Of a stretch of DNA of 64,000 bases, positions 3,754 through 52,712 are shown one piece after another. Made by a program: the position numbers and the translations under genes. The stretch covers positions 1-64,000 of the IMG/VR virus record IMGVR_UViG_3300032268_000694. One strand, given 5' to 3'. The notes under the pieces are model-generated. The model was given only the letters and a program-made list of their open reading frames with translations. It ran no database searches and was not told the origin of the DNA. Position 1 is the first letter of the stretch, and the number at the start of each line of letters is the position of its first letter. The DNA is from a virus.

Positions 3754-4524
3754 ATGTCATATAACGATAATTACGATATATTTGCTGACGACGATAAATT
3801 AGCACTTACTAAACGAGGCAAACCGCGTAAGCGTAAACCAAAAGAACCTCGTATTTATTTTACTCAAGATACTGAAGACGCTATTGTTGAATATCTTATT
3901 ACTATTAATACAGCTGAGCGTAATCGTATTTACAATGAACGTATTGAATATGGCTTTTACAAATTAGCCGAGAATATTATTCATACGTTTAAATTCTACT
4001 ATACTGATACGGATACGATTGAGGAACTTAAACACGAGGTAATTACATTCTTACTAGAAAAACTGCACTTATATAAACCTGAGAAGGGTAAGGCATTCTC
4101 TTATTTTGGTACTATAGCCAAACGTTATCTTATTGTATATAATGAAAATAACTACAAGAAACTTCAAGAAAAAGTTGATGTAGATGAATCTGATGAAGAG
4201 CAGATGTCGTTATATGAAAATGATAAGAACATTGAGAATATGTTGGATGGTAATACATTCATGGATCAATATATTAGATATATAGACAAATACATATTCA
4301 AGTTATTCCCTAAAAAACAAGATGCTCAAACAGCAGATGCTATTGTTGAATTATTTCGTAAACGTGAAACACTAGAAATATTCAATAAAAAAGCATTATA
4401 CATCTACATACGCGAAATCACCGATGTATCTACTCCTCAGATTACTAAAATAATTAAAAAACTTAAATTAATATACGTTCAGCTATATAATGAATATTAC
4501 GAGCACGGACATATAAAGATTTAG
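3754..4524 (+). CDS. gp55-like late-transcription sigma factor
   Basis: A 256-residue protein with the pattern of T4 gp55-type sigma factors, which direct host RNA polymerase to late promoters. A basic N-terminus (TKRGKPRKRKPKEPR) precedes Y-F-T-Q-D-T-E-D-A-I, a helical core with ELKHEVITFLLEKLHLYKPE, and the region-2-like GKAFSYFGTIAKRYLI. It is longer than T4 gp55 (about 185 residues), with an acidic insert around residues 145-165 and a C-terminal helical domain. It lies just upstream of the late structural genes, whose start regions carry a repeated ATATTTAT box. I infer that this factor reads that box. Any sliding-clamp-binding tail was not identified. Confidence 0.78.
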   Translation: MSYNDNYDIFADDDKLALTKRGKPRKRKPKEPRIYFTQDTEDAIVEYLITINTAERNRIYNERIEYGFYKLAENIIHTFKFYYTDTDTIEELKHEVITFLLEKLHLYKPEKGKAFSYFGTIAKRYLIVYNENNYKKLQEKVDVDESDEEQMSLYENDKNIENMLDGNTFMDQYIRYIDKYIFKLFPKKQDAQTADAIVELFRKRETLEIFNKKALYIYIREITDVSTPQITKIIKKLKLIYVQLYNEYYEHGHIKI

Positions 4525-7367: not shown

Positions 7368-7733
7368 ATGAACATCAAAGTATTTAAAAAATTAATTAAA
7401 GAAGCTGTAATTGATGCTATTCATGAAGAGTTACCATACATTCTTGAAGAGCACGTGGCTAAACAAGAGAAAAAAGCATTGCGTGAAGGTAAAACAATGA
7501 GCTTTACCAGTGCAGATGTAATGACAGGTGCTGGTAATCCAGACGTTAAAGCATCATTACGTAGTAAAATGGGTGAAGCCTTTGGTTTTCAACAACCCCA
7601 AACACAATTAAAAGTAATTGATGCTGTTGATGAAGCTACTGGTGAGAAAGTAAATCCATTTGCTGCATTTATAGCTGATGCTGCTGCTAATATGACATCA
7701 ATGGATAGATCAGGATTAAGACAATTAGATTGA
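7368..7733 (+). CDS. Tag-bearing small virion-type protein (121 aa)
   Basis: The start is at the ATG at 7368, right after a late box, not at the upstream in-frame start at 7329. The N-terminus (MNIKVFKKLIKEAVIDAIHE) is a short amphipathic helix with L-I-K-E-A, similar to the putative prohead-targeting tags further right. A longer helix follows, then a polar C-terminus. It lies between tail and baseplate wedge genes. It may be an internal or assembly protein. No family is recognised. Confidence 0.6.
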   Translation: MNIKVFKKLIKEAVIDAIHEELPYILEEHVAKQEKKALREGKTMSFTSADVMTGAGNPDVKASLRSKMGEAFGFQQPQTQLKVIDAVDEATGEKVNPFAAFIADAAANMTSMDRSGLRQLD

Positions 7734-26307: not shown

Positions 26308-27063
26308 ATGATCAAGTTACTAGATTTAATTAAGGAAATACAAAACAAACCAAAAGCTATATTCCTGGCTGGTCCCGCTGGCTCTGGTAAAACGTTTACA
26401 TCTGCTCAAATAATACCGAATAAACTAACGGTAGTTAATGTCGATGATACTTACGAAGAATTATTGAAAGCAGCAGGTTTAGGCACTAAAATCGCAGATT
26501 TCACGCAGGATCAATTGTCGCAAGCAGCTAAATTAATGGGTCAAGCTCAAAAAGCAACTAAAGAAAAATACGCACAATTAACTGGAGAAAAACAAGACAT
26601 TATTGTTGATGGTACAGGTGCAGCTAGCAAGCCTTTATTAAAGAAAAAACAAGAATTAGAAGCATTAGGATACGATACAATGATGATCATGATTTGGGTT
26701 TCACCTTACACATCATTAGAACGTAATGCTAGTCGCGATCGTGCATTGCAACCATCTATTGTTTTAAGAACATGGGTTGGTGTAAATCAAAATATTGATA
26801 CATACAGACAAGCATTTGGTAATAATTTTGTTTTAATTAATAATGATCCAAATGGTAAATTAGAATATGATCCTGCTTACGCTAGAGAGAAATTCTTTAA
26901 AACAGTTAAAGGTAGTGGTAAAGTCTACACACCAGACGAGAAAGCTAAGCGTGATAAAGAAATAGCAGACTTAAACGCTAACCTACAACAACTAACACAA
27001 TCAATTCCAGAATTTACATCTATGGATGATGCTAAATCTAAAATAAATAATTTTATTAAATGA
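26308..27063 (+). CDS. Tagged P-loop kinase, zeta-toxin/PNK-like
   Basis: A 251-residue protein. The first 10 residues, MIKLLDLIKE, are the recurrent N-terminal tag; a TTG at 26299 is rejected because it lies in the promoter box. Walker A is A-G-P-A-G-S-G-K-T (about 21-29). V-D-G-T-G-A and an Arg-rich lid (R-N-A-S-R-D-R) match the zeta-toxin/polynucleotide-kinase type of P-loop kinase. It probably phosphorylates a small molecule, nucleic acid end or sugar nucleotide. If the tag is a prohead-targeting peptide, the enzyme would be delivered with the DNA; T4 gp21-type cleavage after L-I-K-E would remove it. The C-terminus is helical. Confidence 0.72.
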   Translation: MIKLLDLIKEIQNKPKAIFLAGPAGSGKTFTSAQIIPNKLTVVNVDDTYEELLKAAGLGTKIADFTQDQLSQAAKLMGQAQKATKEKYAQLTGEKQDIIVDGTGAASKPLLKKKQELEALGYDTMMIMIWVSPYTSLERNASRDRALQPSIVLRTWVGVNQNIDTYRQAFGNNFVLINNDPNGKLEYDPAYAREKFFKTVKGSGKVYTPDEKAKRDKEIADLNANLQQLTQSIPEFTSMDDAKSKINNFIK

Positions 27064-27761
27064 TAAAATTAATAGACATATTAAAAGAATCTATATTAGA
27101 AGCTAAGTATGGAGATGTAGCAGTGATGCCTGCAAAAGGTGTCCAAAGAGGTACATCAGAGTCAGGTGCTAAATCATTTGACATTAATATTGGAAATACT
27201 GATGTTATTAAAAAAATGGCTAAAACACCAATGGGTAAAGCAGGTTCTGCTACTGCATTTAGTTATGAAGGTCCTGGAGGAAAAACATACTCAGAATTTA
27301 GTTGGAAAGAAGATACAAGTCAATGGGATGTTTGGAAAAACATGAATTATTTAATATTAACACCAATAAAACAACAGGTACATTGGTACCATGGAAAAAT
27401 GCCAGGTGGTAGTTATAAAGACGACAAAACAGGAAATTTGCTTCCTGGCTCAACAGGTACTCCACTTCCTGATTTAACAGTAGATAGGTTTGGGTATAAA
27501 GTATATAAAGCATTACTTTTAGAACCTAGTGTAGGGTATATTCAAAGTGATAAATCATCAACCCCAGCAGTTAAAAAATCAGTTTATACTAACTTAATGA
27601 AAGACAATGACTTAGTATGGGTGTCATCGGGTGGTACAGGTGGATTGGATTATGATCAAATAATGATTATTAACCCATCATATGCAGATAAAAATAAACT
27701 GAAGCAACAATTCGAAAAAGAAAATTCAGGTAAAAAAATTTATACATCTAATAATTTTTAG
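27060..27761 (+). CDS. Tagged protein of unknown function (233 aa)
   Basis: The N-terminus MIKLIDILKESILEAKYGD is the clearest form of the recurrent tag, with two possible L/I-x-E cleavage points. The body is mixed alpha/beta, with Gly/Lys-rich loops and conserved-looking patches GYKVYKALLLEPSVGYIQSD and WVSSGGTGG. The function is not recognised. It overlaps the kinase gene by 4 nt and is followed 9 nt later by another tagged enzyme, so the three are likely expressed and packaged together. Confidence 0.65.
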   Translation: MIKLIDILKESILEAKYGDVAVMPAKGVQRGTSESGAKSFDINIGNTDVIKKMAKTPMGKAGSATAFSYEGPGGKTYSEFSWKEDTSQWDVWKNMNYLILTPIKQQVHWYHGKMPGGSYKDDKTGNLLPGSTGTPLPDLTVDRFGYKVYKALLLEPSVGYIQSDKSSTPAVKKSVYTNLMKDNDLVWVSSGGTGGLDYDQIMIINPSYADKNKLKQQFEKENSGKKIYTSNNF

Positions 27762-27770
27762 CAAATAAAA

Positions 27771-28445
27771 ATGATCAAGTTAATAGACATATTGAAAGAA
27801 ATTGCTGGAGAGGCTGGTGGTATTTGGTATCATGGCTCTATGGCCGATATTAATCAAGCTAATTTAGATCCTTTATATAGACAAAATAAGGGTAAAGAGT
27901 TCATGGCTCAAAAAGCTGCAGATAGTGGTCGTACTGGATCTCAAGATGGGGTTGGTATTTATTTTGGCAAAGATAAAACTTGTATAGATTCATTCTGCCC
28001 TATGAGTTATACAGGGTTTTATAATACAAATGCAAAACAAGGGTTTATGTACGAAATGAAACTAAAACTCGATGCTAAAGTAGAAAGAAAAAGCGACTTA
28101 CATGCTATAGGACCAGAAGCTTTTAAGAGATTTAGACAAGAAGGAATAGATGCTTTTACTAATGGCACTGAATTAAATGTATTAAATCCTGAAGCGATAC
28201 AATCTTTTAGAAAGATAATGCAATGGAAAGAATCACCAGCTTTAATACCTATGGTTAGAGGAAAAAAAGGAGAATTAATACAATTTAATAATGAACAAGA
28301 AATGTTAAATTATTTAAAAAAGGAATTAGGTGATTATTCTGTTTTTACAAATAAAGATGGATTTAAAAATTATATTTCTAAAGACGATAATATTGAAAAG
28401 GGTTTTGTAGAATCAAAAGACAGTAAAAAATGGTTCAACGTATAA
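27771..28445 (+). CDS. Tagged ADP-ribosyltransferase-like protein
   Basis: A 224-residue protein. The tag MIKLIDILKEIAGEA precedes G-I-W-Y-H-G-S (about 17-23), then G-V-G-I-Y-F-G (about 61-67), then F-M-Y-E-M-K-L (about 92-98). This order of Y-H-G, G-I-Y-F and a beta strand with Glu is the layout of the ADP-ribosyltransferase fold (H-Y-E group). T4 packages a comparable enzyme, Alt, whose N-terminal peptide is removed by the prohead protease. NAD binding and modification of host RNA polymerase or another target are inferences. The C-terminal third has no recognised motif. Confidence 0.6.
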   Translation: MIKLIDILKEIAGEAGGIWYHGSMADINQANLDPLYRQNKGKEFMAQKAADSGRTGSQDGVGIYFGKDKTCIDSFCPMSYTGFYNTNAKQGFMYEMKLKLDAKVERKSDLHAIGPEAFKRFRQEGIDAFTNGTELNVLNPEAIQSFRKIMQWKESPALIPMVRGKKGELIQFNNEQEMLNYLKKELGDYSVFTNKDGFKNYISKDDNIEKGFVESKDSKKWFNV

Positions 28446-28455
28446 AATATAAATA

Positions 28456-29751
28456 ATGAACTTAGGACAATACTTAGTACAACAACTGTTAGAAGCAGAA
28501 CAAACAACAATTGCTTTGTTTCCTGGTGCTTTCAAACCACCACACAAAGGTCACTTTGCTGTAGTTAAAAAATTATTAGAAAATGCTGATCAAGTAGTTG
28601 TATTAATATCACCTAAAACACGTGAAGGTATTACTGCAGACGAAAGTGTTGCTGTGTGGGAACTATATAAAACATTACTAGATGGTTCTGTTGAAATAAG
28701 AGTTGCAGCAGAAAATCCAGTTAGAGAAACATATGATGTAATTAAAAATAATCCTGATACTAACTTTGTAGTAGCATTTGGTAAAAACGATGCTGATAGA
28801 TTTAGACAAATGGGTAAAAACCCAAATGCAAAAGTATTTGATGCTGGTACGTTTGAAGGCCAAAATGCAACAGGATTAAGAGCAGCATTAGCCGCTAATA
28901 ACGAAGATGCAATCAAACAATTCCTTCCAGATGGTGTTGATATAGCTGATTTCTTAATGGCTTTAAGTAAAGCTAAAAAAGAAGAACCACCTGTTGAAGA
29001 ACCAGCAGCTGCTCCTGCAGCTGAACCAGCTCCAGTAGCAGAATATAAATCTATAAATCAAGACGATACATTTGCTAATTATGTTTTAAGTAAAGAAACA
29101 GAAATAGAGCAAGCAGCACAGGATTTTAATTTTCCTATCCCAGATATAAGATATGCTTTTACTACAGGTAATATGGTTATATTAACAGATGACATTAAAT
29201 CTAAATTAGAAAATAAAGATCATCGTGATGAAGATAAAGGTGCTGGTCCAGCAATGATATTGAATTACGATAAAGACAAATATTATTTAGTATACGGTAG
29301 TCATTTAATACACGGTGAAGATCCTAAAGTATTAATGGCTGTATTAGATCTAGAAGGACCTAAACCATTCCCATTAAAAGAAGGTAAGCTAAACGAAAGC
29401 GAAACAGCGACTATTGGTGAATTTGTAAAGTATGCTATAAAAAACTTGGGAATTCAAAGTCCTCCCCGTAACTTATCGCTATCATACGATACAAATAAAG
29501 CGAAGGAAATGAGGAGTTTTGGTTATTTTAGTCCAAATGATAATAAAATATGGGTTTACTGCGCTAATAGAAATATGGCTGACATATTGAGAACACTAGC
29601 ACACGAATTAGTACACCGTAAGCAAGACGAAGACGGACGTATTAATTACGAAAGCGGTAAAACGGGAAGTGAGATTGAAAACGAAGCAAACGCTATGGCT
29701 GGGGTTTTATTAAGAGATTTTGGCAAACAACACGAAGAAATTTATCAATAG
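28456..29751 (+). CDS. Nucleotidyltransferase-metalloprotease fusion
   Basis: A 431-residue protein. Tag-like start MNLGQYLVQQLLEAE. Residues 19-165 are a cytidylyltransferase-like/NMNAT-type domain: F-P-G-A-F-K-P-P-H-K-G-H (H30-x-G-H33) and N-A-T-G-L-R-A-A-L in place of the usual I-S-x-T-x-x-R. A Pro/Ala/Glu linker (about 178-196) leads to an undefined middle domain. The last part has A-H-E-L-V-H (H383-E-L-V-H387) with E-N-E-A-N-A-M-A-G about 24 residues on as the third ligand, so a zinc metalloprotease-like domain. Joining both activities in one protein is unusual. It may modify NAD metabolism and cleave a host or phage protein; both are inferred. Confidence 0.75.
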   Translation: MNLGQYLVQQLLEAEQTTIALFPGAFKPPHKGHFAVVKKLLENADQVVVLISPKTREGITADESVAVWELYKTLLDGSVEIRVAAENPVRETYDVIKNNPDTNFVVAFGKNDADRFRQMGKNPNAKVFDAGTFEGQNATGLRAALAANNEDAIKQFLPDGVDIADFLMALSKAKKEEPPVEEPAAAPAAEPAPVAEYKSINQDDTFANYVLSKETEIEQAAQDFNFPIPDIRYAFTTGNMVILTDDIKSKLENKDHRDEDKGAGPAMILNYDKDKYYLVYGSHLIHGEDPKVLMAVLDLEGPKPFPLKEGKLNESETATIGEFVKYAIKNLGIQSPPRNLSLSYDTNKAKEMRSFGYFSPNDNKIWVYCANRNMADILRTLAHELVHRKQDEDGRINYESGKTGSEIENEANAMAGVLLRDFGKQHEEIYQ

Positions 29752-29753
29752 TT

Positions 29754-30221
29754 ATGTATATTATTTACTGTGACATGGACGGTGTCCTTGTTGATTTTGA
29801 GAAAGGTTACTACGATTTAACTGGTACCTCTACTAAACAATTTCCTAAGGGTGACAATTCATTTTGGCAACCAATAAGTGATGCTGGTGCTGAATTTTGG
29901 GCTACTTTACCTTGGATGCCTGATGGAAAAGAATTATGGAATTATATTAAGAAATATAAACCAAACATTCTATCATCCCCATCTCAGGACCCATCATCTA
30001 AAGTAGGTAAGGAAGCTTGGTTAACAATGAACTTACAAGGCGGGTATAAGAAAGCATATTTCTATGGTAGAGCTAATAAGCAATTATTCTCAGATAAAAA
30101 TAGAATATTAATTGACGATTTACCAAACACAATTAATGAATGGAATGCTAAAGGTGGTATTGGTATCTTACACACCTCAGCAGCCAACACAATAAAGGAA
30201 CTTAAAAAATTAGGGTTATAA
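29754..30221 (+). CDS. HAD-type 5'(3')-deoxyribonucleotidase-like
   Basis: A 155-residue HAD phosphatase. Motif I is C-D-M-D-G-V-L-V-D-F (residues about 6-15). Ser in I-L-S-S-P-S (about 75) serves as motif II and K-N-R-I-L-I-D-D-L-P (about 115-124) provides motifs III and IV. Size and motifs suit the 5' nucleotidase, deoxy (pyrimidine) group found in many phages, which dephosphorylate nucleotides. It has no N-terminal tag. It overlaps the next gene by 1 nt. Confidence 0.8.
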   Translation: MYIIYCDMDGVLVDFEKGYYDLTGTSTKQFPKGDNSFWQPISDAGAEFWATLPWMPDGKELWNYIKKYKPNILSSPSQDPSSKVGKEAWLTMNLQGGYKKAYFYGRANKQLFSDKNRILIDDLPNTINEWNAKGGIGILHTSAANTIKELKKLGL

Positions 30222-30840: not shown

Positions 30841-31119
30841 ATGGACAACGTTTGGTCGGTACTTATCACAGCAATTACAGTTTTGAGTGGTACATCAGCC
30901 TTTAGATATTACGAAAAGCGTGCAATACGCAAAGAACGCGATGATGAATTTATTCGTCATGACTGCAAAGATCGTATTACTAAATTAGAAGCATTACTAG
31001 AAAAATCATCCCAAGAAAAAGACGAAATGCGCCAACAGATACTAGATTTAGTAGCTGAAGTGGCTTCATTACGTACTGAAATTAAATACCTAACTGATAA
31101 ACGCATTGGAGGCATATGA
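30841..31119 (+). CDS. Membrane-anchored coiled-coil protein (92 aa)
   Basis: An N-terminal hydrophobic segment (about residues 4-22, VWSVLITAITVLSGTSA) is followed by basic residues and a long coiled coil (CKDRITKLEALLEKSSQEKD onward). Topology and size resemble inner-membrane spanin or holin-accessory proteins, but an outer-membrane partner lipoprotein was not seen beside it. It overlaps the next gene by 4 nt (ATGA). Confidence 0.6.
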   Translation: MDNVWSVLITAITVLSGTSAFRYYEKRAIRKERDDEFIRHDCKDRITKLEALLEKSSQEKDEMRQQILDLVAEVASLRTEIKYLTDKRIGGI

Positions 31120-31436
31120 TTAATTTAATATCTATATTAACTGAGGTTAAAGAAACATTTGAAAATTTTGCTACTGTTCGTGGTAAAGGTGCTGCTAAAA
31201 TTGCTGCTACCGCTGAAGAAAAAGGTGGATTATCCTTATTAACATGGCATCATTTTAAAGTTAAGGCTCCGTATTATAAAAAAGCAACTGAAGGTAAATT
31301 TGATAAAGAAGCAGCTATAAAAGAATTTGAAAAAACACTAAAAAGTATATCATTGAATATGACTCAAATAGAATTCCAACGTGAAGTTGGTCGTTTAGAG
31401 GTATTAGGTGAATTACTAATTAGAGACAAAAAATGA
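31116..31436 (+). CDS. Tagged small protein (106 aa)
   Basis: The start MINLISILTEVKETFENF matches the recurrent tag (L-T-E as a possible cleavage point). The body is a helical, basic domain with W-H-H-F-K-V-K-A-P-Y-Y and an acidic C-terminal helix. Similar short proteins occur in T4-like phages but without a defined role. It overlaps both neighbours by 4 nt. Confidence 0.6.
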   Translation: MINLISILTEVKETFENFATVRGKGAAKIAATAEEKGGLSLLTWHHFKVKAPYYKKATEGKFDKEAAIKEFEKTLKSISLNMTQIEFQREVGRLEVLGELLIRDKK

Positions 31437-32086
31437 GTTATTTAGTAGCAAATATACCACCAATTGAGGTTTATATTGATAAGCGTTTTTTGTATGATTT
31501 TCAAAAAGACGAAAAAGGTAAACTATTAGGAGATGGTGAGTGGGAAAAAGGACATTGGGTTAGTGTAAAATCTATCCCCAACCGTGTATTGTTATTCGAA
31601 ACATACATTGATACCTTTGGTGCTGTGTATGATAAATTACCTATTCACGCGTTTCGTTGGAGACCACTAAAATCAACAGATAAAGTGTTTCCATTAGATT
31701 TCCTACAGCTTTGGGATTGTTTATCGTATAATATATCAGTGATTGAAAAGAGAGTGTTAAGAGGTGTTAAAACGTATACTACAATGAAAGACCAATCCGT
31801 TATGGAAGGTGAATATTTATTTACAATTGATACAGCACATTCTGACCCAAATGAAATAGATTGTGGTTGGAGTGAAACACCAAATGAACATAAGTGTTAC
31901 AATGTATCAAAATTAGATAATGGACAAATATGCGCTCAACCAAACAATAGAACTAAATGGTACCAACCAAGTAGAACTAATGATATAACTGAAAAACCAT
32001 ATTTTAAATATTCCACTAAAATTTGGAAATCAGAAGACTATAGTAAATGGCGTCCATCTGATACTAATTGGGATTATAATAAATAA
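31433..32086 (+). CDS. Protein of unknown function (217 aa)
   Basis: An untagged globular protein with many Trp and Tyr residues. Recognisable segments are VANIPPIEVYIDKRFLYDFQ at the start, HAFRWRPLKSTDKVFPLDFL, and an acidic metal-site-like ID-T-A-H-S-D (about 141-146). A Cys/Trp-rich end follows. The function is not recognised. The segment GEWEKGHWVSVKSI suggests a beta-rich fold. It lies between a tagged protein and a sulfotransferase-like gene. Confidence 0.6.
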   Translation: MSYLVANIPPIEVYIDKRFLYDFQKDEKGKLLGDGEWEKGHWVSVKSIPNRVLLFETYIDTFGAVYDKLPIHAFRWRPLKSTDKVFPLDFLQLWDCLSYNISVIEKRVLRGVKTYTTMKDQSVMEGEYLFTIDTAHSDPNEIDCGWSETPNEHKCYNVSKLDNGQICAQPNNRTKWYQPSRTNDITEKPYFKYSTKIWKSEDYSKWRPSDTNWDYNK

Positions 32087-32753: not shown

Positions 32754-33635
32754 ATGATAAAGTTAACAGAAATACTACAAGATATAATAGCTGAAAAGAA
32801 ACTTTGCCCTAAAGGCAGAGCTTACTATAATCGCCGTAGAGCTGCTGGTGAAAAACCTTCAGCTTATCTTTCTGGTCGTGCTGTTAAGGTGTGTAAAGGA
32901 TTGATGGAAGAAGGAAGTGAGGATGAAGCATGGGAATTAGTAGGTCAAAAAGATCTAAATATATCTAAAATAGTAAAAAATGCTGGATTTAAATATGATG
33001 AAGAATCTGTTAATAAATTAATACCTATTATTGAAAAAACACCTGCAACTAATATTTCTCCATCTCAAGTAACAAAACTTAAAAATTTTAATAATAAATC
33101 TGGTGAAGAATCTCTTATAACAGATATAATCAAAATCAGTAAATCTCAGAATCCAAGACAAGGATATATAGATTTAATGACTAAAAGAGATTCAAATGAT
33201 AGTAATAGACAAAGAGGATATGATATTGGTAGTTTATATGATCAAGTAACAACAGGAAATTATGAACCTCCTGTATTAATTGATATAAATGGAACTCTAT
33301 ATGTAGTTGGTGGAAGAACTAGACTATATGCTAGTTTAGCAGCTAATAAAAATATAAAAGTTAAAATATTAAACTCAGATAAATTAATTAATTTAGATGA
33401 ATCACTTCGTGATTGGTTTAAAAAAGAAGATTGGGTTCGTATTGATACAGCAGGCAACATAACTGGTCCTTGCGGTACAATGAAAAAAGGTAATAAAACA
33501 ACTCGTTGTTTACCTCGTGCTAAAGCAAACCGTTTAACTAAAGCTGAACGCGCTGCTACATCAAAGAAAAAAGCAGCATCTGATAAGCAATTTGTACCTA
33601 ATACTAAAAAAGCAAAAGTAAAACTTAATAAGTAA
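32754..33635 (+). CDS. Tagged ParB-like protein with basic C-terminus
   Basis: A 293-residue protein. The tag MIKLTEILQDIIAEKK (I-A-E cleavage point) is followed by a basic segment C-P-K-G-R-A-Y-Y-N-R-R-R. The middle has Y-E-P-P-V-L-I-D-I-N-G and V-V-G-G-R-T-R-L-Y-A, close to the ParB/sulfiredoxin-like nucleotide-binding motif (GGRTRLYA corresponds to GxHRxxA-type sequences). The C-terminus (about 217-293) has GPCGTMKKGNKTTRCLPRAK and Lys/Ala-rich runs, of a type (DUF5872-like) found in other phages. It may bind DNA in the capsid. Confidence 0.68.
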   Translation: MIKLTEILQDIIAEKKLCPKGRAYYNRRRAAGEKPSAYLSGRAVKVCKGLMEEGSEDEAWELVGQKDLNISKIVKNAGFKYDEESVNKLIPIIEKTPATNISPSQVTKLKNFNNKSGEESLITDIIKISKSQNPRQGYIDLMTKRDSNDSNRQRGYDIGSLYDQVTTGNYEPPVLIDINGTLYVVGGRTRLYASLAANKNIKVKILNSDKLINLDESLRDWFKKEDWVRIDTAGNITGPCGTMKKGNKTTRCLPRAKANRLTKAERAATSKKKAASDKQFVPNTKKAKVKLNK

Positions 33636-33639
33636 ACTA

Positions 33640-34191
33640 ATGAAAATATCAGAATTAAGACAATTAATTAAAGAAACTATTGAAGAAGCATTCTTCATTG
33701 GTGAAGATGATATCGATAATGTAGAGTGTAAAAAGTGTGGATGGAAATGGAAATTATCAAATGGTGGAGAAAATCCATACCTTTGCCATAAATGCGACTA
33801 TGATAATAGCTACGCTTACAATGATAGTATAGACGAATATGACGTTGAAAATGAACAAGACCTTAAAGAATTTATTGTCTTTATAAAAGAATATAAACAA
33901 GTATTAGCTGAAGGATGTGACTGCTTAACCGAAGCTGAATACCGTGGTCGCAAAGTGCAATTAGGCAAAATAATGCAGGGCGACATAAAGAAATTTAAGG
34001 TATTTGTTAAGAACAATAAGGGCAAAGTAGTTAAAGTTAACTTCGGATTTGGTGGTAAATCAGCCAAAGGTAAACGAATGGTAATTAAAGCTAAAAACCC
34101 AAAACGTCGCGCAGCATACAGAGCAAGACATAACTGTGATAACCCGGGACCACGTTGGAAAGCCAATTATTGGTCATGTAAAAAATGGTAA
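33640..34191 (+). CDS. Tagged zinc-ribbon protein (183 aa)
   Basis: The tag-like start MKISELRQLIKETIEEAF is followed by a zinc ribbon with C30-K-K-C33 and C49-H-K-C52. An acidic linker precedes a very basic C-terminal domain (about 105-183) with KFKVFVKNNKGKVVKVNFGF, R-A-R-H-N-C-D-N-P-G and a W-S-C-K-K-W end. This C-terminal domain recurs in uncharacterised proteins of environmental T4-like phages. The mix of tag, metal site and basic tail suggests an internal DNA- or capsid-binding protein; the role is unproven. Confidence 0.68.
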   Translation: MKISELRQLIKETIEEAFFIGEDDIDNVECKKCGWKWKLSNGGENPYLCHKCDYDNSYAYNDSIDEYDVENEQDLKEFIVFIKEYKQVLAEGCDCLTEAEYRGRKVQLGKIMQGDIKKFKVFVKNNKGKVVKVNFGFGGKSAKGKRMVIKAKNPKRRAAYRARHNCDNPGPRWKANYWSCKKW

Positions 34192-34231: not shown

Positions 34232-35062
34232 ATGAATATTAAAGAAGTACGTAACGTTATCCAACAAGTAATTGCCGAAGCAATGGAAAAAGAGGGTGGC
34301 TTACCAAAAAGCGGTGGAAAACTAGTACACCTTAAGAAAGAATTAGCTAGCTTAAAGAACATGAAAGAATCTTTAGGTCAATTGCAAATCGCTGAAGGCG
34401 GTGAACAACAATTCGTAGCTGAATATGCACATATGCAAAAATTCGTTACTGAATTAGAAAAAATTAAAACTGCTCACGCTAAATTAGCTGAAATGTTAGA
34501 CAAACAAATTTCTGAAGTTGAAACTAAAGTTTCATCTGAGACTGAAAAGATCAAAGAAATGGTTGGTTTAATCGAAAAAGCTCCTAAGAAAGACGCTAAG
34601 AAAGCTCCTGCTAAGAAAGACGATAAAAAAGCAGAGCCTAAAAAAGCTGAAAAGAAAGAAGAGCCTAAGGCTGACGATTCAAAAAAAAAAGCTAAAAAAT
34701 TAGACGAAGCATCTTTCTCAAGTACTGATGTTAATGCTATTTTAAAAGCTGCTAGAGCTGCTGTTGAAGCAGGTAAAGAGGTAACTGTTGATGGTATCAA
34801 AATAGGAAAGGTAGTATCTGGGTTAGGAAGATTTATTCCTGCTGATGGTAGCCAATCTTTAAAAATTATGGATTACGTTGGTGAACCAGAAAAAATTGTA
34901 ATTGACGGAGTCCCGGCTACATTAAAACCAATGGAACCTTCTAAACCACAACCTGATACAAGGACACCAGAAGAAAGAGCAGCTCAACAAAGAGCTTTTG
35001 ATGACAGATACGGACCTGGTGGTGGATATGATACAGCATTCGGAAGATACACAGGAGATTAA
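34232..35062 (+). CDS. Tagged Lys/Ala-rich head-interior-type protein
   Basis: A 276-residue protein starting MNIKEVRNVIQQVIAEAMEK, with the textbook I-A-E/A site of a T4-type prohead protease. A helical region is followed by a tract of Lys, Ala, Pro and Glu (about 110-155, KKAPAKKDDKKAEPKKAEKK), a small domain (about 165-230) and a Pro/Gly-rich end. Long charged low-complexity tracts and the tag suit an internal head or scaffold-core protein. No family is recognised. Confidence 0.68.
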   Translation: MNIKEVRNVIQQVIAEAMEKEGGLPKSGGKLVHLKKELASLKNMKESLGQLQIAEGGEQQFVAEYAHMQKFVTELEKIKTAHAKLAEMLDKQISEVETKVSSETEKIKEMVGLIEKAPKKDAKKAPAKKDDKKAEPKKAEKKEEPKADDSKKKAKKLDEASFSSTDVNAILKAARAAVEAGKEVTVDGIKIGKVVSGLGRFIPADGSQSLKIMDYVGEPEKIVIDGVPATLKPMEPSKPQPDTRTPEERAAQQRAFDDRYGPGGGYDTAFGRYTGD

Positions 35063-35073
35063 TATAAATAACA

Positions 35074-35448
35074 ATGATCAAATTACTCGACATATTAAAT
35101 GAAGCTCTTGATCCAGTAGGTAAAGAAGATGATGACATCAACAACGATGGTAAAGTAGATAAAACAGATAAATACTTAGCTACTCGTCGTAAAGCAATAT
35201 CTAAAAATGTAGATGAAACTCATCTAAATTGGCCTCCGACTCCAGACCATGAAGCTACTATGGCTATGGGTGAGTTAAGAAGTATGATAAAAAATAGTAT
35301 AACTATTTACAAAAATGTCAAACCAAATCAACAATTACCAGGTTGGGTTTCAGCATACGTAACTTTAGCATCTGATTATATGAATAGTGTTGCTCAATAC
35401 TTAGTTGAAGAAGAAGCTACATTAGGCCAAGAAATAAACAATGGATAA
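35074..35448 (+). CDS. Tagged EF-hand-like small protein (124 aa)
   Basis: The N-terminus [17 protein letters not shown] carries the tag with an L-N-E/A site. Directly after it, [14 protein letters not shown] looks like a dockerin/EF-hand-type calcium loop (about residues 21-33). The rest is helical. It overlaps the next gene by 8 nt. It may be an internal virion protein; calcium binding is inferred from spacing of the acidic residues. Confidence 0.65.
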
Positions 35449-39912: not shown

Positions 39913-40941
39913 ATGAAAGTAACAGAACTACAAGAAATTATTCGTAACGTTATTAAAGAAGCGTTAAATGAAGATCAAGCTGCTGACAAAGCAGCACAAG
40001 ACGCTGAAAAAGCATCTGTACAAAAACAAATATCTGCCCTTAATAAAAAGAAATCAGAATTAAGTACAAATAAACCATCATCAGAAGATAAACCAGCACA
40101 AGATGCTGAAAAAATTGCTGTAGATAAAAAAATTGCTACATTAAATAAAAAAACACAAAAATTAAATAAACCAGGTATTTCATCACTTGAATTAGATGAA
40201 ATGGCAAACGTATCAGTACGTTACCAATTAGCTGGTGATGCTAATGCCGATGATTTTAAAGGTAAGAAAAATAGAATTATCACTGCTATGAAAGCCACAG
40301 GCGAGCCTATGGCAAAAATCGACGTAGCTGGTGAGTTAGGATACGACAAGCAAAATCCAATCAACTCTGATTTCATGGAACTTGTAGCCTCAGGTGTTAT
40401 TGAACCAGCAGGTGAACAAAAAGCACCACGTCTAACTCGTCCGGCATCTGATAAGCCAAAAGGTGGCGAAGGCGAAGATGATTTTGTTACTGGTGATTTA
40501 AGTGATGAAGAAGTAGACGCTATGTTTGCTAAAGCAAAAGCATCAGGTGATGAAGAACCCGAAATTGGTGATATTGAAAAAGCAGATGTATCTGCTGCTA
40601 AAATGTCAGATGAAGATTATGAAGCGTTTATGAAAGTTTCTGATTTAGAAAATCGTTTAGCTGCTACTAAATCTAATATCTTAAAATTAAAGAAATCAAA
40701 AATAGCTGCAGGTGATATTAGCGATAAACCATCAGATGAATTATTACGTTTACGTGATTTAAAAGCATCATTAGAAAAACGTATTGATGATATCGTTGGT
40801 TCTTCTAAATATTTACAACAACGTCAAGAAAAGACTACAGGCAAAAAATATGAGCCTATTAATATTGAAGATGTAGAAACAGAACCATTAGATGAATGGA
40901 CTATAAATAGAATGCAATTTTATGCGGGAATTAAAAAATAA
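39913..40941 (+). CDS. Tagged head-assembly-type protein (342 aa)
   Basis: Starts MKVTELQEIIRNVIKEALNE, matching the tag with an L-N-E/D site; an ATG 18 nt earlier would touch the promoter box. The protein is rich in Lys, Asp, Glu and Ala. It has coiled-coil segments (about 30-80 and 235-300) and a small domain (about 95-155). It ends D-E-W-T-I-N-R-M-Q-F-Y-A-G-I-K-K, similar to the scaffold end E-T-V-S-R-W-Q-M-L-A-G-I-K. It may join the scaffold core and be trimmed by the prohead protease. The exact role is unproven. Confidence 0.68.
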   Translation: MKVTELQEIIRNVIKEALNEDQAADKAAQDAEKASVQKQISALNKKKSELSTNKPSSEDKPAQDAEKIAVDKKIATLNKKTQKLNKPGISSLELDEMANVSVRYQLAGDANADDFKGKKNRIITAMKATGEPMAKIDVAGELGYDKQNPINSDFMELVASGVIEPAGEQKAPRLTRPASDKPKGGEGEDDFVTGDLSDEEVDAMFAKAKASGDEEPEIGDIEKADVSAAKMSDEDYEAFMKVSDLENRLAATKSNILKLKKSKIAAGDISDKPSDELLRLRDLKASLEKRIDDIVGSSKYLQQRQEKTTGKKYEPINIEDVETEPLDEWTINRMQFYAGIKK

Positions 40942-49301: not shown

Positions 49302-49910
49302 ATGAAAACATTATTAATAGACCATACACCATTTCACATAGCTAAACTAACACTGTCAGAAGGTAAAAATGTACCTGGTGGAAGAATGCGTGTTAAAGGT
49401 AAATTACAAGAATCTGAAGTTAAAAATGGTAATGGTCGTGTTTATCCTAAAGAAGTATTGCAACGTGAAGTTGAAAAATACATGGAAGGACCAATCAAAA
49501 CCAACACTGCATTAGGTGAATTAGACCACCCAGAATCTACAATCGTTAACTTAAATAACGTATCACACAACATTAAAAAAGTTTGGTGGGATGGTAATGA
49601 TTTAATGGGTGAATTAGAATTATTAAATACACCAGCAGGTAAAATTGCACAAGAAATTATATCAGCAGGTATTCCATTGGGTATTTCATCTCGTGGTATG
49701 GGTTCAGTACGCCAAATAGGTGAAACTGTTGAAGTACAAGACGATTTTGAATTATTATGTTGGGATTTAGTATCAGTACCATCAACTCCAGGCGCTTATA
49801 TGTCATTAGCTGAAAATAAAAAAGCACAAGCTGGTAAAGACTATAGTAAAGTAAATGGTTTAATTACAGAAATTATTTGCAACGTAACAGGAGTTTGTCC
49901 TCTCTGTTAG
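49302..49910 (+). CDS. Prohead maturation protease, gp21-like
   Basis: A 202-residue protease, near T4 gp21 (212). Motifs: K-N-G-N-G-R-V-Y-P (about 42-50), G-E-L-D-H-P (His near residue 71) and G-I-S-S-R-G-M-G-S (Ser near residue 127), the His/Ser arrangement of the herpesvirus-like S78 prohead proteases. It cleaves scaffold, core proteins and the capsid protein, usually after an L/I-x-E sequence in T4. Many proteins here carry such a motif at their N-terminus. It is followed by a terminator hairpin. Confidence 0.92.
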   Translation: MKTLLIDHTPFHIAKLTLSEGKNVPGGRMRVKGKLQESEVKNGNGRVYPKEVLQREVEKYMEGPIKTNTALGELDHPESTIVNLNNVSHNIKKVWWDGNDLMGELELLNTPAGKIAQEIISAGIPLGISSRGMGSVRQIGETVEVQDDFELLCWDLVSVPSTPGAYMSLAENKKAQAGKDYSKVNGLITEIICNVTGVCPLC

Positions 49911-51116: not shown

Positions 51117-52712
51117 ATGAACGTACAACAATTATTAGAATCTTCAAACCAATACAAAACTGTAATGGAAGATTCAAAAAAATTGTCTAGTAAGTGGGAA
51201 AAATCAGGCCTTTTAGAAGGTATCAAATCCACTACAGACAAGAACACAATGGCTATGCTATTGGAAAACCAAGCTAAGCAGTTAGTAACTGAAGCTTCTC
51301 AAACAGGTGGACAAGCATCTGGTGCTGGTGCATATTCTGGTGAAAGCTGGAATGGTGTTGCTTTACCATTGGTTCGCCGTGTATTCGGTGAAATCGCTGC
51401 TAAAGAATTCGTTAGCGTACAACCTATGAACTTACCTTCAGGTCTTGTATTCTATCTTGATTTCAAATACGGTACTAATGAATCTCCTTTCACTGCTGGT
51501 AGCTCTTTATATGGTGCTTCTACAACAAACAACGTAACAGTTCCTACTTCTCAATCATTATATGGTGCTGGTCGTTTTGGTTATTCAATCAACCAATACT
51601 CAGCTTCTATAGGTGCTGTAAGTTCTTCAGTATCTTTTGCTGATGTTAACTTTAACTCAGATTACATTGTAACTGGTTCTTTCAAGAAAGTATTAGTTCC
51701 ATTACCAACTAACGCTGATTTAAACGCTGTTAGATCATTTGTATTCACTACAGGTTCAATCGGTGCTACAGATATCATCCAACAATTTACTACAGTATCT
51801 AGCAATACTGCTTCTTTCGTTGTTACAGCTTCTTTATTACCAAACGCTTCTACTTTAGGTAATGTTATTTTATTCTACTCTGTTCAACCTACATCAGAAA
51901 CTCGTGGTGATTTTGAAGATGGTGCAACTAAAACAAACAGTGGTACAACAATCGCTATCCCAGAAATTAACGTTCAGTTAAAATCTGAAGCAATCGTTGC
52001 TAAGACTCGTAAATTGAAAGCACAATGGACTCCGGAATTCGCTCAAGATCTTAACGCTTATCATAGCGTAGATGCTGAAGCTGAATTAACTGGTATCTTA
52101 TCTCAGTACATTTCTATGGAAATTGATCTTGAGATCTTAGATATGTTAATCCAAAACGCTTACACAACTGAAAGATGGTCTGCAGTTAACAACCAATCTA
52201 TAAGCGCTGCGGGTGTTGTAACCCAAAACTCAGCAACTACTGGTGGTTTTTATAACACACAAGGTGGTTGGTTCCAAACTTTAGGTACAAAATTACAAAA
52301 AGTATCTAACACAATTCATCAGTTAACTTTAAGAGGTGGTGCTAATTTCTTAGTTACTTCTCCTACAGTTGCAACTATCTTAGAATCTATCCCTGGATTC
52401 GCTGCAGATGGTGATGGTGAGAAAATGGAATTTAACTTTGGTATCCAAAAGGTTGGTTCTTTAAACAGTCGTTACAAGGTTTACAAAAACCCTTACATGA
52501 CTGAGAACGTAATCTTAATGGGTTACAAAGGTGCTCAATTCTTAGAGTGTGGTGCTGTATTTGCTCCATATGTTCCATTGATCATGACTCCATTATTATA
52601 CGATCCGGCTACATTTACTCCACGTAAAGGTCTTATGACTCGTTACGCGAAGAAAATGATCCGTCCTGATTATTATGGTAAGGTGTTTGTTAGTGGTTTA
52701 GAAACAGTTTAA
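51117..52712 (+). CDS. Major capsid protein, gp23-like
   Basis: A 531-residue capsid protein, close to T4 gp23 (521). Family features are G-V-A-L-P-L-V-R-R-V-F-G (about 79-90), Q-P-M-N-L-P-S-G (about 101-108), R-K-L-K-A-Q-W-T-P-E-F-A-Q-D (about 298-311), and the end R-Y-A-K-K-M-I-R-P-D-Y-Y-G. A Ser/Thr-rich insertion (about 130-260) may form a surface domain. The first 60-70 residues are probably removed by the protease during maturation, as in T4. A terminator follows the gene. Confidence 0.95.
   Translation: MNVQQLLESSNQYKTVMEDSKKLSSKWEKSGLLEGIKSTTDKNTMAMLLENQAKQLVTEASQTGGQASGAGAYSGESWNGVALPLVRRVFGEIAAKEFVSVQPMNLPSGLVFYLDFKYGTNESPFTAGSSLYGASTTNNVTVPTSQSLYGAGRFGYSINQYSASIGAVSSSVSFADVNFNSDYIVTGSFKKVLVPLPTNADLNAVRSFVFTTGSIGATDIIQQFTTVSSNTASFVVTASLLPNASTLGNVILFYSVQPTSETRGDFEDGATKTNSGTTIAIPEINVQLKSEAIVAKTRKLKAQWTPEFAQDLNAYHSVDAEAELTGILSQYISMEIDLEILDMLIQNAYTTERWSAVNNQSISAAGVVTQNSATTGGFYNTQGGWFQTLGTKLQKVSNTIHQLTLRGGANFLVTSPTVATILESIPGFAADGDGEKMEFNFGIQKVGSLNSRYKVYKNPYMTENVILMGYKGAQFLECGAVFAPYVPLIMTPLLYDPATFTPRKGLMTRYAKKMIRPDYYGKVFVSGLETV

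Follow-up and report, generated by a model that had tools for sequence, protein, structure and literature searches.

A tagged fusion of a HIGH-type nucleotidyltransferase and a zincin, a candidate head-packaged protein of T4-like phages

Results

A three-domain fusion protein

The first 64,000 nucleotides of the 119-kb viral record IMGVR_UViG_3300032268_000694 (hereafter the window, meaning this whole stretch) contain an open reading frame (ORF) in which a HIGH-superfamily nucleotidyltransferase is fused to a domain with a zincin-type metallopeptidase site, behind a short N-terminal tag. It stands in a cluster where other genes, including that of a P-loop kinase, begin with similar peptides, and is followed by the gene of an NT5C-like nucleotidase. 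Genes for a prohead protease and a major capsid protein lie further downstream (Table 1).

The original prediction had placed an H-K-G-H motif (residues 30-33) and an H-E-L-V-H motif (residues 383-387) in one frame and read the product as a possible injected, bifunctional NMNAT-metalloprotease fusion. Both motifs do share one uninterrupted frame of the 431-residue ORF. In addition, domain searches match both halves, and the pair recurs in many contigs as well as in the complete genome of an isolate. A sequencing frameshift or assembly artefact joining two genes is ruled out by the isolate genome, by dozens of contigs and by the single coding frame. The combination had also been thought unknown among described phages. 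In fact, gp88 of Flavobacterium phage immuto (YP_010114595.1), annotated only as NMNAT/NadR, carries the pair, and zincin-bearing multidomain injected proteins are known as polyvalent proteins (PMC5512222); that statement is only partly right.

Relatives are encoded in 585 stretches returned by a scan of viral contigs, and 79 loci were retained from these. When 39 sequences (homologues of 32-93% identity) were aligned, residues H30, G32, H33, R142, H383, E384, H387, E408 and E410 proved invariant. Since active-site residues are invariant across these sequences, the fusion protein is not a chance reading. In comparisons with five relatives, the ratio of nonsynonymous to synonymous substitution rates (dN/dS) lies at about 0.18-0.32 in the N-terminal domain, and the C-terminal domain gives 0.02-0.07. 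Only seven matches, all weak, were found in bacterial and archaeal genomes.

An AlphaFold2 model built on the 39-sequence alignment (mean predicted local distance difference test, pLDDT, 81; predicted template modelling score, pTM, 0.41) shows a helix at residues 3-13, the nucleotidyltransferase (18-172), a Pro/Ala-rich linker (173-202) that is predicted to be disordered, a folded middle domain (about 203-297), a flexible linker and the C-terminal domain (314-431). Refolded apart from the rest of the protein, the middle and C-terminal domains reach a pLDDT of 90. The middle domain, located between the two halves, was not part of the original prediction. "Bifunctional" is therefore too narrow a term for a protein with three folded domains and for a family in which some relatives have about five modules.

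The N-terminal domain is a HIGH-type nucleotidyltransferase

The fold of the N-terminal domain is that of HIGH nucleotidyltransferases, with a PxHxGH motif. It scores above the cut-offs of Pfam CTP_transf_like (22.6 versus 21 bits) and TIGR00125 (30.4 versus 27.7 bits) and matches a PHROG annotated "cytidyltransferase" (9.7e-08). On the other hand, the NMNAT specificity proposed at first is not supported as it stood. Curated NMNAT, NadD and PPAT equivalogs all score far under their cut-offs, and a confident NMNAT assignment was rejected (TIGR01527, 23.0 versus 181.2 bits; NF002243, 26.6 versus 127 bits). In fold searches, PPAT, NadD and NMNAT (NadM) chains tie at Z 14-15. Finally, NAPRTase (NadV) was sought in the window's record and in ten relatives (124-183 kb), records that may be incomplete, and was not found; in a phage survey, every phage with NadM also carries NadV (PMC9503650). 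Because the equivalogs stay below cut-off, the folds tie and NadV was not found, HIGH-type nucleotidyltransferase is the better name, with nicotinamide mononucleotide (NMN) as a possible but not favoured substrate.

These results bear on the idea that the protein is a cytosolic nicotinamide adenine dinucleotide (NAD)-salvage enzyme expressed during infection: a genuine NMNAT, with the protease as an accessory, that would provide NAD+ against NAD-depleting defences or for phage ADP-ribosyltransferases. The PxHxGH motif, the presence of NadM and NadD among the best folds, the annotation of immuto gp88 and the known synthesis of NAD+ by phages (PMC9503650) all fit this idea, but the scores of the curated models, the equal scores of PPAT folds, the lack of a fused Nudix or kinase domain and the failure to find NadV in these 11 possibly incomplete records make it improbable.

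The C-terminal domain fits a zincin fold

PHROG 87 ("metallo-protease") matches the C-terminus (1.2e-04). In the model, a helix (314-331) is followed by three strands (339-343, 356-359 and 364-368), a helix bearing HELVH (374-392) and a further helix bearing E408 and E410 (406-425). Residues 314-431 thus contain the helix, three strands, HEXXH helix and Glu helix that define the zincin core of polyvalent proteins. The downstream Glu that had been proposed as third zinc ligand is borne out, together with the metalloprotease-like site: both E408 and E410 are invariant, and both lie in the helix that follows the HELVH helix in the model. A fold search placed Wss1, selecase and IrrE-like structures among the nearest, with a middling best Z of 8.9, and a sequence search of solved structures gave no significant match. 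Membership of Peptidase M78 (PF06114) was rejected, the score being under the gathering score (13.9 versus 22 bits). As the predicted secondary structure, the HELVH motif and the invariant Glu residues agree with the middling fold scores, we assign the domain to the zincins, whose fold the model fits. Among viral structure predictions, its near relatives sit in much longer proteins under several other names. A second motif, HEIEH, is present in the C-terminal part of immuto gp88 (L002:15874-16887) and may mark a second metallopeptidase.

For the middle domain, the match to ParB (4umk, E 0.083) and weak Foldseek matches to PadC and Noc provide a lead towards a ParB-like fold. In other relatives, this domain is a module of separate tagged proteins.

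A family of N-terminal tags ending in xxE

The tag of the window fusion, MNLGQYLVQQLLE, is followed by Ala. Nine of the 69 window ORFs open with a peptide resembling MIKLxDIL.E or MKxxELRxxIxxxIxEA, whereas no such peptide begins at any of 288 internal Met; the window count is to be taken as descriptive. Besides the fusion gene, ten window genes are tagged, these nine and the gene at 34232 after correction of its start. The related loci contain 170 tagged ORFs among 1152, compared with 2 matches at 4065 internal Met. The tagged window proteins have no significant similarity among their bodies beyond the tag. At the end of the tag, LxE is found in all 30 tagged homologues (15.9 expected). The tag-like N-terminus noted in the original prediction is therefore a member of a family found well above internal-Met controls, and fits an injected protein.

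In the T4 capsid-targeting sequence, which is 10-19 residues long, positions 4 and 7 serve targeting and positions 8 and 10 serve processing (PMC9026906). MIKLIDILKE is hydrophobic at positions 4, 7 and 8 and has Glu at position 10. Hence, as with T4-type cargo, a propeptide of 10-19 residues with a prohead-protease-type end is common to unrelated proteins. Comparable tag peptides are borne by immuto, one of them on its NT5C protein, and the stand-alone zincin of Synechococcus phage B23 starts with MNYKQFLRES.

Linkers keep a Glu joint that resembles a putative capsid cleavage site

The linkers of the fusion family vary in length and sequence yet keep a (L/I/V/M)xE joint beside the following domain. 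The motif is present in 21 of 22 nucleotidyltransferase-middle linkers (8.4 expected by shuffling), in 21 of 23 middle-zincin linkers (7.0 expected) and in 15 of 16 linkers lacking a recognised middle domain (8.0 expected); as the homologues are related, these counts are not independent and the shuffle expectations overstate their significance. When the test was repeated for other residues, Glu was the sole one clearly enriched across all three linker classes. Putative processing between the domains, which the original prediction had proposed to check, has support at the sequence level in these conserved LxE joints.

The major capsid protein of the window has LVTE/A at residues 56-60 (a slash marks the joint here and below) and that of immuto has IVSE/A at the equivalent place. 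By analogy with T4 gp23, both are likely maturation sites. Because the interdomain joints resemble these capsid sites and a prohead protease gene is present, we propose that the prohead protease could cut the fusion.

The main alternative for processing is cleavage of the polyprotein by its own zincin, a mechanism already put forward for DdrB of phage P1 and for other polyvalent proteins. In the survey of such proteins from phages and conjugative elements (Iyer et al. 2017, PMC5512222), the zincin is described as the hub domain and the candidate autoprocessor; in the fusion, it is the part under the strongest constraint (see dN/dS above). The xxE joint, however, also ends the tags of many proteins that have no zincin, and it resembles the site in the capsid protein. 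Since zincin-free proteins share the joint, we regard autoprocessing as unlikely, and cutting by the prohead protease as the preferred reading.

Modules are shared between tagged proteins and long chains

Relatives of the fusion carry a Pol-beta-like nucleotidyltransferase (NTase) in front, a repeated or inserted module of about 350 residues, or an appended nucleotidase or other domain; the longest reach 1358 residues, with about five modules in one ORF. Several modules occur both behind a tag of their own and within longer ORFs, and xxE lies close to the same joint in these settings, at 70 of 95 joints (30.3 expected). The clearest cases are QILME/GGNVFG (L012) and KLILE/GGNVFG (L070); similarly, DILKE precedes a module in L035 and NILKE precedes the same module in L007 and L008. 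Between the window protein and its L022 counterpart, synonymous divergence (dS) rises from 0.24 in the N-terminal domain to 1.14 in the zincin, a nearly fivefold difference. Such unevenness is expected under exchange of modules by recombination, and suggests that it took place at the linker.

The closest isolate protein, immuto gp88, has the HIGH domain followed by the zincin as in the window (31% identity over both pieces). An NT5C gene follows, again as in the window, and the gene neighbourhoods are related. It differs by its length (about 907 residues), by a Pol-beta-like NTase in front and by a further region behind.

Two other architectures were observed. In the 1358-residue ORF L029:6140-10216, two copies of the module of about 350 residues (KYGNGYSFCISARG) separate the nucleotidyltransferase from the zincin; at many loci, separate ORFs of about 870-1000 residues carry a weak relative of this module close to their start. 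L021:6947-8401 combines tag, middle domain, zincin and a C-terminal 220-residue module that is ADP-ribosyltransferase-like by eye and that no library confirms.

Could the N-terminal peptides be ordinary amphipathic starts, and the fusions the result of neutral stop-codon loss between neighbours, without any head packaging? Genes united in a fusion often lie side by side in other loci, and fusions retain tags in their interior, as such an origin would predict. However, near-identical tags occur on unrelated bodies, far above the internal-Met controls, and Glu-specific joints are kept in linkers that are otherwise hypervariable. Both facts indicate selection, and we give a purely neutral origin little credence.

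Neighbouring genes

Homologues of the P-loop kinase encoded at 26308-27063 are found in most related loci, usually upstream of the fusion gene. In clade L053-L080, the kinase is fused to the HAD nucleotidase, in the same domain order as in T4 polynucleotide kinase (T4 PNK). The products of 27060-27761 and 27771-28445 share a W-Y-H-G motif and look ADP-ribosyltransferase-like by eye; no supporting family match was found in Pfam, PHROGs or NCBIfam. The gene at 31433-32086 strongly matches a PHROG annotated as ferredoxin (1e-72); its gene neighbourhood is shared with immuto.

Table 1 Features of the window
Positions	Strand	Feature	Basis or remark
7368..7733	+	Tagged (MNIKVFKKLIKE) protein	Start moved from 7329
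26308..27063	+	Tagged (MIKLLDLIKE) zeta-toxin/AAA_33-like P-loop kinase	Pfam Zeta_toxin 5.6e-10
27060..27761	+	Tagged (MIKLIDILKE) protein, no assigned family	
27771..28445	+	Tagged (MIKLIDILKE) protein, ADP-ribosyltransferase-like by eye only	
28456..29751	+	Multidomain ORF, 431 residues: tag, HIGH nucleotidyltransferase, middle domain, zincin	ATG start
28456..28494	+	Tag MNLGQYLVQQLLE, residues 1-13, predicted helix, LxE/A at its end	LxE counts and model
28507..28971	+	HIGH-superfamily nucleotidyltransferase domain, residues 18-172; H30-K-G-H33 at 28543-28554; R142 invariant	
28972..29061	+	Pro/Ala/Glu linker, predicted disordered, residues 173-202; joint V194-A-E196 at 29035-29043	pLDDT <50
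29062..29346	+	Middle domain, residues ~203-297; weak ParB/sulfiredoxin-like resemblance	
29347..29397	+	Second linker, residues 298-314; joints L307-K-E309 (29374-29382) and L312-N-E314 (29389-29397)	
29395..29748	+	Zincin metallopeptidase domain, residues 314-431; HELVH 29602-29616, E408 29677-29679, E410 29683-29685	
29754..30221	+	NT5C-like nucleotidase, next gene after the fusion; fused behind the zincin in some relatives	PHROG 2643 6.7e-28
31116..31436	+	Tagged (MINLISILTE) protein	
32754..33635	+	Tagged (MIKLTEILQDIIAE) protein	
33640..34191	+	Tagged (MKISELRQLIKETIEE) protein	
34232..35062	+	Tagged (MNIKEVRNVIQQVIAE) protein	Start moved from 34136
35074..35448	+	Tagged protein	
39913..40941	+	Tagged (MKVTELQEIIRNVIKE) protein	Start moved from 39895
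49302..49910	+	Prohead (head maturation) protease, proposed cutter of tags and joints	PHROG 207 2.2e-55
51117..52712	+	Major capsid protein, putative cleavage site LVTE59/A60 (51285-51293)	PHROG 138 8.6e-75

The content of the cluster (P-loop kinase, HAD nucleotidase, nucleotidyltransferases, ParB-like domain) could also be that of an injected kit for nucleic-acid or nucleotide repair, which would reverse the damage done by RNA- or DNA-targeting host defences. In line with this, the kinase that usually adjoins the fusion gene is similar to a polynucleotide kinase PHROG and, in one clade, is fused to the nucleotidase in the T4 PNK domain order; Pol-beta-like NTases are fused or adjacent to the gene. 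The best Pfam match of the kinase is nevertheless Zeta_toxin, a zincin does not suit repair and, to our knowledge, there is no precedent for a HIGH nucleotidyltransferase in RNA repair; a repair function has, in our estimation, a low probability.

Discussion

A model for loading and processing of the fusion

With modest confidence, we lean towards the view that the fusion is a head-packaged, polyvalent-type cargo protein of a T4-like myophage, cleavable by the prohead protease. The T4-like phages that carry it probably infect Bacteroidota. The 13-residue tag would bring the protein to the prohead core, much as the capsid-targeting sequence does in T4. At head maturation, the prohead protease would then cut after (L/I/V/M)xE, which would release the tag and set nucleotidyltransferase, middle domain and zincin apart. 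Once inside the host, which they would enter together with the phage DNA, the enzymes would act immediately: the zincin would most likely cleave a host protein, and the nucleotidyltransferase would transfer a nucleotidyl group to a substrate. Of this account, the fusion and its conservation, the nucleotidyltransferase fold, the zincin-type site, the family of tags and the joint motif are observed, and packaging, cleavage, injection and substrates are inferred.

Several observations weigh against this view. The tag is N-terminal in the window protein but not in all homologues: in Pol-beta-fused relatives (such as L004, L018 and L029) it is internal, behind an untagged N-terminus, while the clade L053-L080 begins directly at the nucleotidyltransferase and immuto gp88 is also without a tag. 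As the tag is internal or absent in some relatives, strictly N-terminal targeting cannot be universal. The divergent members L043 and L062 have no joint before the zincin, and the NT5C-like nucleotidase gene next to the window fusion is untagged. The tag patterns were composed after the window tags had been seen, so that the weight rests on the internal-Met control and on the related loci; the dependence among the joint counts has been mentioned above. Finally, no virion proteomics for any member of the fusion family was found in the open-access literature; a paper on Baltic Flavobacterium phages (PMC7077304) makes no mention of immuto.

A broader rule is possible, and here we are more hesitant, our confidence being somewhat short of even. 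T4-like phages, probably of Bacteroidota, may load their heads with enzyme polyproteins in which prohead-protease sites delimit the modules, and maturation would cut these into separate injected enzymes; the same tagged modules would shift from stand-alone proteins into chains of about five modules and back. If so, the capsid's own maturation protease would double as a polyprotein protease, and the head-packaged proteins of T4 and the polyvalent effectors would be joined by one rule, a tag followed by xxE-separated modules. This would also provide a sequence signature for spotting injected phage effectors in metagenomes, with 170 tagged ORFs in about 80 loci. The separation of the domains would then be open to direct test in a cultured phage and its host, immuto and Flavobacterium sp. 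LMO8.

Comparison with known systems

No description of the domain pair, or of an enzyme chain processed by a prohead protease, was found in the open-access literature searched; the survey of polyvalent proteins does not name a HIGH-type nucleotidyltransferase with a zincin (its text is without NMNAT or cytidylyl; PMC5512222). Phage NadM/NadR proteins, in which a HIGH NMNAT is fused to a Nudix domain or a P-loop kinase (PMC9503650), also place a HIGH-superfamily domain in a multidomain protein, and the P-loop kinase gene upstream of the window fusion is a further likeness. In contrast, the window fusion has a zincin in place of a fused Nudix or kinase domain, NadV was not found and the curated NMNAT models are missed. 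The M78/IrrE family and the minigluzincins (selecase, jannalysin) have a zincin fold with the HEXXH and Glu also present in the window C-terminal domain, which differs in its score under the Pfam M78 cut-off and in having no significant sequence match to solved structures.

The internal proteins IPI-IPIII and Alt of T4 (PMC9026906) share with the window proteins a short hydrophobic N-terminal propeptide that ends in xxE and is found on several unrelated cargo proteins, and a head maturation protease is likewise present in the window phage. Unlike the fusion, T4 cargo does not consist of multi-enzyme chains; the tag sequences differ, and packaging of the window proteins is a prediction. Polyvalent proteins (PMC5512222), for their part, also carry several unrelated enzymatic domains on one phage polypeptide. 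As in the fusion family, a HEXXH zincin with a Glu in the next helix and ParB-like and Pol-beta NTase domains recur in them, and injection is predicted. The T4-type tag and the xxE joints of the present family, by contrast, suggest loading and cutting through the prohead protease and not zincin autoprocessing. Overall, polyvalent proteins are the closest known class, and the internal proteins of T4 represent the closest known delivery route.
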